Shown here: positions 22,236-43,403 of the stretch, in pieces
Position numbering within the stretch: position 1 is the first letter of the stretch
Layout of the letters: every line of letters starts with the position of its first letter
Origin: Gammaproteobacteria bacterium
Lineage (GTDB): Bacteria > Pseudomonadota > Gammaproteobacteria > Arenicellales > UBA868
DNA length: 44,669 nucleotides
NCBI GenBank assembly: GCA_022450155.1
Contig: JAKUQR010000024.1
Location: 1 to 44,669 of the forward strand
Direction of reading: 5' to 3'
The notes under the pieces: generated by a model
The model's input: only the letters and a program-made list of their open reading frames with translations
Database searches by the model: none
Told to the model about the DNA's origin: nothing
Translations under genes and position numbers: made by a program

Positions 22236-22808
22236 ATGTCCTGGACCATTCCAAATCTATTGACCTTGTTGCGGGTCGGATTGATTCCCGTGCTGGTTTT
22301 GATGTACTACCTGCCCATCAGCGGAATATACGTGGCTGGTGTTTTCTTGCTGGCCGGATTGACCGACCTGCTAGACGGGTATCTGGCTCGTACGCTGGCG
22401 CAAACTTCCCGGTTCGGTGAGTTTCTGGATCCGGTCGCAGACAAACTTATGGTTGCAGTAGTGCTGGTTTTACTTGTGAGTGATGATATTTTGGTATCTG
22501 AGTTGTTCAGCTCACAGCTGTTTACGGTAGTCACGGCGATTGTGGTCGGGAGGGAAATTGCTGTTTCGGCACTGCGAGAGTGGATGGCCGAACTGGGCAA
22601 TCGAGGCGTGGTGGCAGTTGGATTTGTCGGAAAAATTAAAACCGCCTCCCAGATTATTGCGATCGCACTATTGTTGATGGGCCCTGAAGTTGACATCTTC
22701 CCAGTGTTGATATGTGGTGAGCTATTATTTTACGTTGCAGGAGGGCTCACGTTATGGTCAATGGTGGTGTACCTGAGGGCAGCATGGCCCGATCTCCGGG
22801 GGCGCTGA
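22236..22808 (+). CDS. pgsA: phosphatidylglycerophosphate synthase
   Basis: A 190-residue membrane enzyme with the CDP-alcohol phosphotransferase motif DLLDGYLAR...GEFLDPVADK (D-x2-D-G-x2-A-R-x8-G-x3-D-x3-D) and several helices. It joins CDP-diacylglycerol and glycerol-3-phosphate, the committed step to phosphatidylglycerol and cardiolipin. In E. coli it is directly followed by glyW-cysT-leuZ; here tRNA-Gly follows 147 bases later. The stop lies within overlapping alternative stems (GGCGC-TGATT-GCGCC and GCGCC-AGCCTT-GGCGC, 22801-22826) with no U-tract. Confidence 0.95.
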   Translation: MSWTIPNLLTLLRVGLIPVLVLMYYLPISGIYVAGVFLLAGLTDLLDGYLARTLAQTSRFGEFLDPVADKLMVAVVLVLLVSDDILVSELFSSQLFTVVTAIVVGREIAVSALREWMAELGNRGVVAVGFVGKIKTASQIIAIALLLMGPEVDIFPVLICGELLFYVAGGLTLWSMVVYLRAAWPDLRGR

Positions 22809-22955
22809 TTGCGCCAGCCTTGGCGCGGGGCGATGCTGGTCACTACCTCATCCAAATTTGCGGCTCACAGACGCTCCAGAACTTGATACTACTGAATAAA
22901 CGACATTGCGGGGTACAGCGTAAAGCCTGACTGCTGTAAAATGTCTCGCCAAGCA

Positions 22956-23031
22956 GCGGGAATAGCTCAGTTGGTAGAGCACAACCTTGCCAAGGTTGGG
23001 GTCGCGAGTTCGAGTCTCGTTTCCCGCTCCA
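22956..23031 (+). tRNA. tRNA-Gly (GCC)
   Basis: GCGGGAA pairs with TTCCCGC (23021-23027), with discriminator T and encoded CCA. The anticodon loop in CCTTGCCAAGG reads GCC. A TAAAAT at 22937-22942 may be its -10 box. It is the positional equivalent of E. coli glyW. A 3'-half copy lies at 24606-24651. Confidence 0.96.
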
Positions 23032-23231
23032 AATACTTTGTTTCATGGCGCTCCCTTTGGGGGCAATGCCATAAAGCAGGTCACTTACAGATCAAGACCC
23101 GAAATCGCTCTGACCAGCTGATCAGGGAATTGTGGATGCACCGCATCGTGGTCTTGGTATTGGCATCTCCAGCCAGCTCTGCGACCACTGGCAACGAGTC
23201 ACGTTCAGCAGATAACTAATAAAACTGTGCC

Positions 23232-23254
23232 GGAATCCGAGCGGATTCGGTTTT
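23232..23254 (+). terminator. hairpin plus short U-tract just before dddP
   Basis: GAATCCG (23233-23239), loop AG, CGGATTC (23242-23248), then GGTTTT. It could terminate transcription arriving from tRNA-Gly, or act as an attenuator in the dddP leader, since the start codon is only 14 bases downstream with AAGGGA between. The loop of two bases is tight, so the real stem is probably shorter. Confidence 0.45.
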
Positions 23255-23267
23255 AAGGGAAAGCCGC

Positions 23268-24518
23268 ATGACCGAGCTGACTGTCTTCAAGGATGAACGC
23301 AAACGGGCGTTCCTGAACGCGGAAGGGGCGGACAAGCCCTTGAAAAGTCCTGTGCCTGGCTCGATCCTGGACTGCGCGCGGGCATATCGTTTGCAACGCT
23401 TTCGCGATGAGATGGCGCGACAGGATGTGGCCGGATTGTTGCTGTATGACCCGGTGAACATCCGCTACGCGTTTGATTGTTCCAATATGTCGATATGGAC
23501 TGCGCACAACCCGATCCGCTACGCGCTGGTCCTGAACGGTGGGCCTGGCATCATGTTTGAATTCAAGGGCTGTGAGCACCTGAATGACGGACTGCCGGGA
23601 GTGGACGAGGTGCGTACCGCGATCGGCTGGATGTTTATGTGCGCAGGTGACCGAGCCAAGGAGCGGCTGGTACCCTGGGCCGATGAAATCTCTGATTTGA
23701 TTAGCCTATATGGTCGCGGCAATACCCGGCTGGGGGTCGATCGGCTAGAGCCTGAAGGCGTGCATTCACTTACCGAACGCGGGGTGCAAGTGATCGACGG
23801 CGGACAGATCACCGAGCTGGCACGGTCTATCAAATCCGCCGATGAAATCGAACTGATGCGCTGGACGATCCAAGTGTGCGAGGCCGGCATAGCCCGGATC
23901 TATGAGCATTCGGTGGCGGGGGTAACGGAGCAGGAGTTGTGGGCGCACTTGCACTTTGAGAATGCTCGGTCAGGCGGGGAATGGCTGGAAACGAAGCTGC
24001 TGACCTGCGGGCCGAATACGAACCCGTGGTACAAGGAGTGTTCGATCCGAGAATGTCAGTCGGGCGAGATGATTTCGTTCGACACCGATATGATTGGACC
24101 CTATGGATACTGTGCGGATTTATCTAGGAGTTGGACTTGCGGTTACCTGCCGATGGATGATACACAGAAGCAGCTCTATGTGGCGGCACGTGATCAGATC
24201 GAACACAATCTGGCATTGCTGGAGCCGGGGTTGAGCTTTTCCGAGTTCAACGCGAAAAGCTGGCCGGTTCCTGATGCTTACGCGCCCTATCGTTACTCGC
24301 TGGCAGCACATGGCGTAGGTATGGCCGATGAGTGGCCCGTGGTGCCGTTACATCCTGATTTCGAGGAGGCCCATTCCGGGCAGTTCGAAGAAGGCATGGT
24401 GATTTGCGTGGAGAGTCTGATCGGGGAACAAGGCAGTGAGAGCATAAAGTTGGAGACCCAGGTGCTGATCACGGCGGACGGCTATGAACGGCTGGACAGC
24501 TTTCCCTGGGAGATGTGA
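23268..24518 (+). CDS. dddP: DMSP lyase DddP (M24 metallopeptidase fold), candidate
   Basis: A 416-residue pita-bread-fold protein. It resembles DddP more than a prolidase: NIRYAFDCSNMSIWTAHNP, GGEWLETKLLTCGPNTNPW and FDTDMIGPYGYCADLSRSW are DddP-like blocks. The metal ligands align as Asp272, Asp274, Asp284, His348, Glu382 and Glu396. Tyr343 and Asp354 (HGVGMADEW) fall where catalytic Tyr and Asp are reported in Ruegeria DddP; that numbering is from memory. DddP cleaves dimethylsulfoniopropionate to DMS and acrylate. Start ATG 23268 has AAGGGA 7 bases upstream. Sampled GC is slightly above the neighbours. A related M24 hydrolase with another substrate remains possible. Confidence 0.75.
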   Translation: MTELTVFKDERKRAFLNAEGADKPLKSPVPGSILDCARAYRLQRFRDEMARQDVAGLLLYDPVNIRYAFDCSNMSIWTAHNPIRYALVLNGGPGIMFEFKGCEHLNDGLPGVDEVRTAIGWMFMCAGDRAKERLVPWADEISDLISLYGRGNTRLGVDRLEPEGVHSLTERGVQVIDGGQITELARSIKSADEIELMRWTIQVCEAGIARIYEHSVAGVTEQELWAHLHFENARSGGEWLETKLLTCGPNTNPWYKECSIRECQSGEMISFDTDMIGPYGYCADLSRSWTCGYLPMDDTQKQLYVAARDQIEHNLALLEPGLSFSEFNAKSWPVPDAYAPYRYSLAAHGVGMADEWPVVPLHPDFEEAHSGQFEEGMVICVESLIGEQGSESIKLETQVLITADGYERLDSFPWEM

Positions 24519-24605
24519 AGGCGCGAGGTGTAGCGAATCATGGCTATTTCACGAAGTGCTTGGAGGACTAGCCTATAATGGCAGGCTCGAAGAGTGGTTG
24601 ACCTG

Positions 24606-24652
24606 CCTTGCCAAGGTGACTGTCGCGAGTTCGAGTCTCGTTTCCCGCTCTA
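24606..24652 (+). repeat. tRNA-Gly 3'-half remnant (attachment-site-like)
   Basis: Copy of 22985-23031: the anticodon arm CCTTGCCAAGGT, four changed bases, then a 29-base identical T-arm/acceptor block; the CCA reads CTA. The 5' half is not a functional tRNA, although TATAAT (24574-24579) precedes it at a promoter-like distance. It marks the right end of the dddP islet. Confidence 0.85.
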
Positions 24653-24730
24653 AACTTTCTTCAAGCGATCAAGTTGCTATCCGATCTTTATGATTCAGCC
24701 GGTTTCGAGTTTATTGAGAACTAGAATCTG

Positions 24731-42754: not shown

Positions 42755-42962
42755 GAGATGTGTATTTTGAAAAGGTCACAATATGTATGTCTCCCAGTCC
42801 TTTGAATCGTACCACGTCTATCCCGAACCTCACGTCAGCGACCGACCGATTCTGACGGGGTACAGTCGATGTTGAACGAGTCAACAATCATTGCTTAATG
42901 GCACATCAGTAAGGCTTGACAGCATTGAAAATGTGAAGATCGTGCATGCTATCACTCAAGAA

Positions 42963-43133
42963 ATGAAACAAACCGTCTTTAGAGTAGACGAGAAATTGCA
43001 TCGACCACTTGAGGCTGTAAACGAGCAACTCAGCCAGAAGTTGAAGGAGCAAGCGGTTTATGCAAAATGGTTGGGTTGGAACTTGGGACGATTAGTTGTT
43101 CTCGGTGTGTGGATGTCTCTTCACGGAAAATAG
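42963..43133 (+). CDS. possible 56-residue membrane-associated protein
   Basis: ATG 42963 opens 56 codons: an amphipathic charged first half (KLHRPLEAVNEQLSQKLKEQ) and a hydrophobic C-terminal stretch (WLGWNLGRLVVLGVWMSL). AAGAA precedes it weakly. The frame also opens from TTG 42891. Not recognised. The rest of the 546-base gap 42755-43300 holds the right-end iterons and no other gene. Confidence 0.3.
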   Translation: MKQTVFRVDEKLHRPLEAVNEQLSQKLKEQAVYAKWLGWNLGRLVVLGVWMSLHGK

Positions 43134-43165
43134 ATGCTGGGCTGTTTATGTCACCGTTATTTTCG

Positions 43166-43190
43166 TTCGGTGCAACGTTGGTGCAATTCT
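43166..43190 (+). repeat. right inner 11-bp iterons (arm-site candidates)
   Basis: TTCGGTGCAAC followed directly by GTTGGTGCAAT; GTGCA starts at 43170 and 43181. They lie about 115 bases inside the right-hand tRNA-Leu repeat and match the left-end units in sequence, spacing and orientation. Confidence 0.6.
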
Positions 43191-43300
43191 GACTCCAACT
43201 CTGCTCATATTCATTCACACTAACACCAACCGAAGAGGGCGGTAGTTCTGTATTCGTAAGGGTTTCTGTGAGTCAGCAGGTGTAGTCCTGTAGAATCAGT

Positions 43301-43359
43301 GGGACTTAAAATCCCTCGGCCGAATGGCTGTGCCGGTTCGAATCCGGCCCCGGGCACCA
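43301..43359 (+). repeat. perfect copy of the tRNA-Leu 3' half (right attachment site)
   Basis: 59 bases identical to 39432-39490, from the 5' side of the anticodon stem to CCA. Identity ends at both edges (a/t before, c/t after). The missing 5' half means it is not a tRNA gene. Confidence 0.93.
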
Positions 43360-43366
43360 TTACATT

Positions 43367-43394
43367 GCAGGGGCGCTGAGTGTAGCGCTCCTGC
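43367..43394 (+). terminator. hairpin after the right tRNA-Leu repeat
   Basis: GCAGGGGCGCT (43367-43377) and AGCGCTCCTGC (43384-43394) form an 11-bp stem with one G-T pair and loop GAGTGT, then CTTTAT. It begins 7 bases after the copied CCA, the normal place for a tRNA terminator, so it was probably tRNA-Leu's own before the islet separated them. The U-tract is weak. Confidence 0.55.
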
Positions 43395-43403
43395 CTTTAT
43401 CAA

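Follow-up and report, generated by a model that had tools for sequence, protein, structure and literature searches.

Additive flexible genomic islands of marine and freshwater bacteria have been described for Alteromonas (PMC5217437) and for a tRNA-Lys island of Candidatus Methylopumilus (PMC10872708) and, as far as the available portions of these papers go, consist of cassettes gained by site-directed recombination whose content varies among close relatives, with repeats of the tRNA 3′ end in Methylopumilus. In Dehalococcoides tandem islands are located at ssrA, and the 15 islands without an integration module have been suggested to be cis-mobilizable and to move by accretion (PMC3146451, in part). 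Exchangeable clusters are flanked by glyW-cysT-leuZ in Dickeya (PMC9765074, in part), and Tycheposons of Prochlorococcus are tRNA-bordered cargo in marine bacteria (as cited in the accessible parts of PMC10872708 and PMC11389934). Here we describe the pgsA-tRNA-Gly-Cys-Leu locus of a gammaproteobacterium with a draft genome of 3.2 Mb; the stretch analyzed, called the window below, is one whole contig of 44,669 bases (JAKUQR010000024.1, C24). It is very probable that this conserved operon has been a repeated target of integration, with the youngest layers lying beside the tRNA, a reading carried directly by the ancestral compact order, by empty and filled sites, by tRNA fragments, by the order of the Leu layers and by islet ends shared between genomes.

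The locus shares with the additive islands the cassettes and their variable content but uses two (perhaps three) tRNAs of one operon and takes that operon apart. Like those of Dehalococcoides, its islands lie in tandem between 3′ repeats of a single RNA gene, whereas there the target is a tmRNA and 16 islands carry an integration module with a serine recombinase. The same three tRNAs are involved in Dickeya, whose secondary-metabolite clusters are instead bordered by integrase, transposase and phage remnants, the accessible portion of that paper describing no layered fragments. Tycheposons differ in having a tyrosine recombinase, none being recognised in the window's islets, and are listed among phage satellites in PMC11389934 (accessible part).

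The comparison comprised genomes of the window's family (G labels), 80 named loci fetched by pgsA and 109 genomes of the order; L labels mark single loci and contigs, named, family or viral. tRNA genes were called with ARAGORN, domains were assigned by Pfam and NCBIfam, homology was also sought among PDB sequences, and tRNA fragments and islet ends were compared by local alignment scored against base shuffles. pgsA matches at E <= 1e-20 were obtained in 47 of 61 genomes, and among named records the window's pgsA comes closest to that of an 'Acidiferrobacteraceae' metagenome-assembled genome (protein identity 73%).

A sequence-only reading of the window had proposed that pgsA is followed on one strand by dispersed Gly, Cys and Leu genes, and ARAGORN together with the open reading frame (ORF) coordinates bears this out, the spacers measuring 8,688 nt (Gly-Cys) and 7,610 nt (Cys-Leu) (Table 1). 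Both of the islets with tRNA-derived end repeats that it named were found, and its 3.9 kb islet after Leu proved to be 3.87 kb long including the Leu 3′ fragment. The view that cargo sits at every tRNA stands for Gly and Leu, where repeats bound the cargo, but at Gly the repeat encloses no more than 1.6 kb, and the remaining 7 kb before Cys has no tRNA boundary.

Table 1 Positions of the features of the tRNA locus in the window
Feature	Position	Strand	Remarks
pgsA	22236..22808	+	ORF; left anchor of the conserved operon
tRNA-Gly(GCC)	22956..23031	+	ARAGORN; integration site 1
Gly islet, 1.6 kb, one long gene	23032..24654	+	bounded by tRNA-Gly and 3′ fragment
DddP-like M24 protein (possible dimethylsulfoniopropionate (DMSP) lyase)	23268..24518	+	PDB 4b28 E 3e-91, 4rzy E 2e-88
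tRNA-Gly 3′ fragment, 49 nt	24606..24654	+	right end of Gly islet; 90%, 5 mismatches, E 1e-13
Block before Cys: GFA, unnamed protein, TauD, FAD oxidoreductase, CoA-transferase III, GST	24655..31719	.	no tRNA boundary
tRNA-Cys(GCA)	31720..31793	+	ARAGORN
Cys-Leu block: NUDIX, SDR, broken amidohydrolase, DsbA-like, SMP-30, PhyH, RidA-like, Fe-S protein	31794..39403	.	
tRNA-Leu(UAA)	39404..39490	+	ARAGORN; integration site 2
Leu islet A, 3.87 kb	39491..43359	+	perfect Leu 3′ fragment at right end; absent between Leu and gdh in G001
TGGTGCAA, candidate left arm site	39562..39569	+	72 nt after tRNA-Leu; putative function
PhyH gene of islet A	39686-40612	-	
EAL + LysR-substrate protein of islet A	41207-42754	-	
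GGTGCAACGTTGGTGCAATT, tandem arm-like site of islet A right end	43169..43188	+	homologous ends in G003, C19, G032
tRNA-Leu 3′ fragment, 59 nt	43301..43359	+	right end of islet A; 0 mismatches, E 5e-26
Left part of older Leu islet B: SufE; gene cut by contig end	43360..44669	.	continues on contig C19
12-bp GC-rich hairpin after Leu fragment	43367..43394	+	fold -22.3 kcal/mol, z -4.4

Among the named loci, which are often cut by contig ends, tRNA-Gly follows pgsA in 68 of 80, Cys lies <=300 nt from Gly in 52 and the full compact trio is present in 19; Gly and Cys are >4 kb apart in two, and Cys was not found within about 10 kb of Gly in 11. Nine family genomes have Gly and Cys on one stretch, compact in seven, with gaps of 13 nt (G020), 16 nt (G025), 17 nt (G015 and G021), 65 nt (G009) and 71 nt (G005 and G010), and split in two, the window's genome (8.7 kb) and G006 (6.4 kb). 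These gaps support a compact Gly-Cys order as the probable ancestral state of the family. The Cys-Leu gap measures 0.67-8.4 kb in all nine family genomes having both genes on one contig and, since it is never shorter, it opened before the window's genus arose. This gap is also what could be held in favour of the idea that the three tRNAs never formed one compact operon in this clade, so that nothing was split; for Gly-Cys that idea is already contradicted by the seven compact family genomes and by the trio and the Gly-Cys pair of the named loci, and we regard it as scarcely credible. tRNA-Val(GAC) comes after tRNA-Cys in G007, on a contig (G007:C13, L167 2225-2425) that holds neither its Gly nor its Leu gene.

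At the Gly site the window's fragment, which served as a positive control, beats 100 of 100 shuffles, and a second Gly fragment was not found in 24700-31719, where the local alignment was matched or bettered by 52 of 100 shuffles. Three relatives bear a Gly fragment at the old Gly-Cys junction: a 43-nt one (93%) stands 16 nt before Cys in G006, and in G031 and G024 it stands 15 nt before Cys, the position of intact Gly in compact genomes. The spacer between fragment and Cys in these three genomes resembles, by eye, the Gly-Cys spacer of the compact G020. G031 has a second, perfect Gly fragment 6.4 kb nearer the contig end, giving 100% and then 84% identity, with intact Gly on another contig; if the contigs join as expected, these would be two Gly layers with the older scar outside. 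A perfect fragment lies 1.1 kb before Cys in G030, with no second one, and the contig of G002 stops 306 nt past Gly in a stretch without a match to the window.

For the gene of the window's Gly islet DddP is the best NCBIfam model at 370.7 bits, below the curated cut-off of 600, and the protein is kept as DddP-like. The Gly islet of G006 (G006:C57, L168 2944-8949) holds the F420 genes CofE and CofD, a two-radical-SAM protein and a luciferase-like oxidoreductase. The window's tRNA-Gly is identical to that of eight genomes of genus g4, and that of the congener G002 is nearly of the genus g3 type (80% identical to the window's), its 5′ half included.

The Leu site shows the layering most fully, and there the dispersed locus extends past the contig end. 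The window's Leu fragment, likewise a positive control, beats 100 of 100 shuffles, and beyond it islet B runs into a gene cut by the window's end, which has no Pfam match and is ATP-grasp-like by eye only. The C-terminal part of this gene is at the right end of C24 and the N-terminal part at the left end of another contig of the same genome, C19; in G007:C51 the two parts match one gene, consecutively and 0.14 kb from each other (66% and 60% identity), and C24 and C19 appear to be neighbours. C19 carries a decayed Leu fragment (86%, C19:3198-3256) and then gdh and the c3 block. The order in the window's genome is accordingly Leu, islet A (3.9 kb), the 100% fragment, islet B (~4.7 kb), the 86% fragment, the gdh region and the c3 block. 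In the congener G001 gdh, a glutamate-dehydrogenase-like gene 83% identical to that of the window's genome, follows Leu after 115 nt and the c3 block comes 14 kb later, without islets A and B. Because G001 lacks both islets and the fragments are perfect and then decayed going outward, the layers accreted at tRNA-Leu; their order supports the view that they age away from the tRNA. The hairpin past the perfect fragment is probably the former terminator of tRNA-Leu, displaced to a distance of 3.9 kb.

The same junction can be followed across the family. From intact Leu, 12 of 20 loci go on to c3 of a common block (c3, c5, c6, c7), directly or past one aromatic-amino-acid-lyase-like gene; one of the remaining eight (G006) stops at Leu. 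In six genomes the distance from intact Leu to c3 is 50-67 nt, and in G032 c3 is preceded at 66 nt by a Leu fragment (93%). The first genes after Leu differ among G000, G001 and G003, all of one genus. On G022:C42 (L229 4032-4054) only 28 nt separate c3 from a 23-nt segment of the Leu 3′ part (91%), which might perhaps be another, faint scar at the old junction. Within islet A the larger gene joins an EAL domain to a LysR substrate-binding domain without a helix-turn-helix match, an architecture that looks unusual. Replacement of the Leu 3′ half of the window's genome by the element's copy (it differs from G001 at 5 of 59 positions) was considered and dropped, since the G007 tRNA is nearly the same and leaves the direction undecided.

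The fragments have a common geometry, 10 of the 11 aligned beginning at tRNA positions 24-34 and 10 reaching the 3′ end; four of the five Leu fragments begin at position 29 and one at 31. The islet ends are related as well. In islet A the 180 nt that precede the Leu fragment are homologous to the same stretch in G003:C206, C19 and G032:C82 (0 of 300 shuffles each), the comparison of C19 with G032 alone being weaker (10 of 300) and that with G002:C65 covering 38 nt only. Right ends of Leu islets are thereby homologous in two genera beside different genes: PhyH and the EAL/LysR-substrate protein in islet A; SufE, universal-stress-like and HisA-like proteins in islet B; AceK and DUF411 in G003; an aminoacyl-tRNA-editing domain, a P-type ATPase and MerR in G032 (in G003 and G032 the left islet boundary lies outside what was read). 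Among the Gly islets the ends of G030 and G031 are homologous (0 of 300 shuffles); the other 14 pairs do not stand out, the best, window against G030, being reached by 11 of 300.

Within the right ends of islet A, G003 and G032 the pattern GGTGCAA-N3-TGGTGCAATT is held. It occurs at only three places in the 109 order genomes, each beside a Leu fragment, and a control pattern at none; the motif was derived from the same three genomes in which it was found, and the count speaks for specificity only. In the window TGGTGCAA has five copies and TGTGGTGCAA is exact only at the left arm site. The exact motif is present in nine IMG/VR viral contigs, two of which look alike, and a tRNA 3′ segment lies within ~180 nt of it in four of the nine, against 8 of at most 300 control stretches. 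In the viral contig L261 the fragment begins at tRNA position 29, ~100 nt past the motif, which is the geometry of islet A, and in L262 and L263 an integrase ORF lies ~0.2 kb from the motif. Three longer patterns gave 0 matches in the viral contigs, and searches of phage and plasmid DNA with the islet ends matched almost only the tRNA part. The motif may be an arm-type site of an integrase. Derivation of the islet right end from an entire tRNA-Leu gene, since decayed, together with its upstream region was considered and dropped as too weakly supported: in a first set of 18 comparisons 4 of 300 shuffles equalled the best and many more equalled most of them, and in a further eight the best two (islet A end against G006 and G029) were equalled by 5 of 300.

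On this basis elements would enter tRNA-Gly and tRNA-Leu by tyrosine-integrase chemistry, recombining in the anticodon region or 3′ half. Every insertion would keep an intact tRNA at the left, leave a copy of its 3′ half at the right and push the downstream DNA away, and reuse of the same tRNA would stack layers, the youngest adjoining the tRNA and the oldest outside.

The DNA on either side of tRNA-Cys behaves differently. From 25782 the block before Cys is collinear with G002:C88 and from 26995 with G003:C214, and the Cys-Leu block is collinear to 38224 in G003:C214 and partly in G007:C25; overall the collinearity covers 25.8-34.0 kb with G002 and 27.0-38.2 kb with G003, and the cargo from 25.8 to 38.2 kb was therefore inherited within the genus. 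The window's Cys-Leu gap yielded no decayed Cys fragment (42 of 100 shuffles scored as well), the window as a whole none beyond T-arm letters common to the Leu fragment, and none was clear in seven further family Cys-Leu spacers, that of G003 being read in part (5 of 60 shuffles as good). The sole partial match in the family is 23 nt of the Cys 5′ part, in G020. Within the family, direct evidence of Cys use is limited to G021, where an integrase lies 180 nt past Cys. Insertion at tRNA-Cys is thus not supported for the window's lineage by these alignments, and the Cys-Leu block and 24655-31719 may have arrived by another route. The suggestion that each tRNA was used in turn holds for Gly and Leu, both used repeatedly, and is not supported for Cys. 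The proposed comparison of the uvrC-pgsA-tRNA locus likewise gave a mixed result, with compact Gly-Cys genomes and cargo that differs after Gly and Leu on one side and cargo inherited within the genus on the other.

Cargo brought by homologous recombination or rearrangement of chromosomal segments, the tRNA fragments being incidental, would suit just this stretch, which has no tRNA boundary and is partly collinear in two congeners, and some cargo genes do have homologues elsewhere in relatives. It leaves unexplained the Gly fragments at the old Gly-Cys spacer in three genomes, the Leu fragment next to c3 in G032 and the right ends that are homologous beside unrelated genes; as a general explanation we consider it improbable, and for Gly and Leu in particular it is unlikely. 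At 33381-34863 of the window an amidohydrolase gene is split into two ORFs, with one 560-aa ORF and ~190 more bases in G003:C214, and this split is by comparison an apparent case of cargo decay.

In the 80 named loci an integrase-type gene directly follows the tRNA in five, after Gly in L063 and L078, after Cys in L084 and after Leu in L093 and L107. They were sought with a home-made profile, whose final version was run on 16 loci only, and six matches were checked by Pfam. Arm-DNA-bind_3 is present in all five loci and the catalytic domain in four, the match of L078 being barely above the cut-off; L084 has the arm-binding and central domains and no catalytic-domain match. All three tRNAs are therefore targets in Gammaproteobacteria, the Cys evidence coming from other lineages. 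In the family G021 alone has an integrase close by on contigs with these tRNAs; G008:C267 has a partial PF00589 match 3.8 kb beyond Leu, and the two PF00589 matches of G006 are both on contigs other than that of its Gly islet. None of the 14 PF00589 matches in the window's genome is on C24 or C19. Integrase or transfer genes were not found by Pfam in the ORFs of islet A and the Gly islet (a 107-aa ORF at 40960 lying outside the scan), and no tandem GGTGCAA was seen next to the integrase of G021 or in 12 stretches surrounding integrase matches in the window's genome.

The islets surviving in the window, with metabolic and regulatory genes, att-like ends and no recognised integrase, could have been mobilised in trans, moved within larger elements or trimmed to remnants. 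The enzyme and its supply we infer. Loss of the integrase after insertion, the islets being remnants of ordinary integrase-carrying islands or prophages, is a serious contender that we hold at slightly less than even; it concerns mobilisation only and not integration at the tRNAs, and makes trans-mobilisation unneeded. It draws on the integrase-type genes directly after the same three tRNAs in other Gammaproteobacteria and after Cys in G021, on the amidohydrolase gene broken in the window and open over 560 aa in G003, and on the decay of the 86% Leu fragment. Against it, the perfect 59-nt repeat makes islet A look young although no integrase is recognised in it, one and the same end is bordered by different genes in two genera, and PF00589 finds nothing on the 21 kb of G032:C82. 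That islet A combines a perfect repeat with the lack of a recognised integrase, and that different genes lie next to common ends, would somewhat favour non-autonomous movement. An integrase-free cassette family with a shared arm sequence, moved in trans by phage or island integrases and stacking at the tRNAs of one operon, is a more speculative proposal, which we think doubtful.

Several points weigh against repeated integration as the account of the whole locus, besides the derivation of the arm motif given above. The window's islets contain no recognised integrase, and its genome gave none that pairs with the Leu arm motif; the family genomes are all drafts, many contigs stopping at or just past these tRNAs, so that most are unreadable across the locus and integrases could be missed. 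The base composition of the islets is near that of the remaining window, the Gly islet being slightly higher (0.57). The window's Gly-islet end has no clear relation to other Gly-islet ends, and neither the 7 kb before Cys nor the Cys-Leu block is bounded by a tRNA fragment, so that other routes are possible. Apart from the locus, a stretch of low GC (38-41%, ~50% elsewhere) occupies 1-2000 of the window, directly upstream of tRNA-Ser(UGA) at 2118.

Newly gained promoters for Cys and Leu, which the sequence-only reading had required, are not supported. TATAAT at 31635 and TAAAAT at 39391 are present as letters, but neither place was picked out as promoter-like on the + strand by a two-hexamer scan. 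Upstream of Leu the sequence is similar to that of G006, G007, G010, G024 and G029 (above all 200 shuffles) and is not similar, by the same comparison, to that of G001, G003 and G020; given its likeness to five relatives, the Leu promoter need not be new. TATAAT ~80 nt upstream of Cys is kept in all three readable genomes of the genus, and a -35 box was not seen there. Each tRNA would presumably have remained transcribed.

Integration hotspots with additive, CIME-like (cis-mobilizable element) islets are already known, and this locus is a well-resolved new case of that kind. tRNA 3′ repeats bound the Gly islet and Leu islets A and B, and cassette content differs among relatives, as in additive islands; the repeats begin in the anticodon region and restore the tRNA 3′ part (59 of 59 nt in islet A), as at tRNA att sites. 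By their flanking att-like sites and the lack of recognised integrase or transfer genes, islet A and the Gly islet look CIME-like. The element-borne tyrosine recombinase of Tycheposons has no counterpart here, no PF00589 match lying on C24 or C19. No paper on this locus in this family was found, a weak negative given partial literature coverage. Its particular trait is that a three-tRNA operon is taken apart while each tRNA stays whole.

For the family the locus offers a readable series of gene gain, with compact, once-filled and twice-filled versions of the operon and scars of ordered age. That essential tRNAs remain whole while their operon is dismantled suggests that the transcription of each is secured separately. 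The arm motif together with the Leu fragment gives a sequence tag for finding integrase-free islets and the missing helper in ocean metagenomes. If the doubtful proposal of cassettes moved in trans were true, the locus would be a tRNA-based cassette array shuttling single traits, such as DMSP cleavage-like functions, F420 synthesis, copper export and hydroxylases, among marine Gammaproteobacteria.

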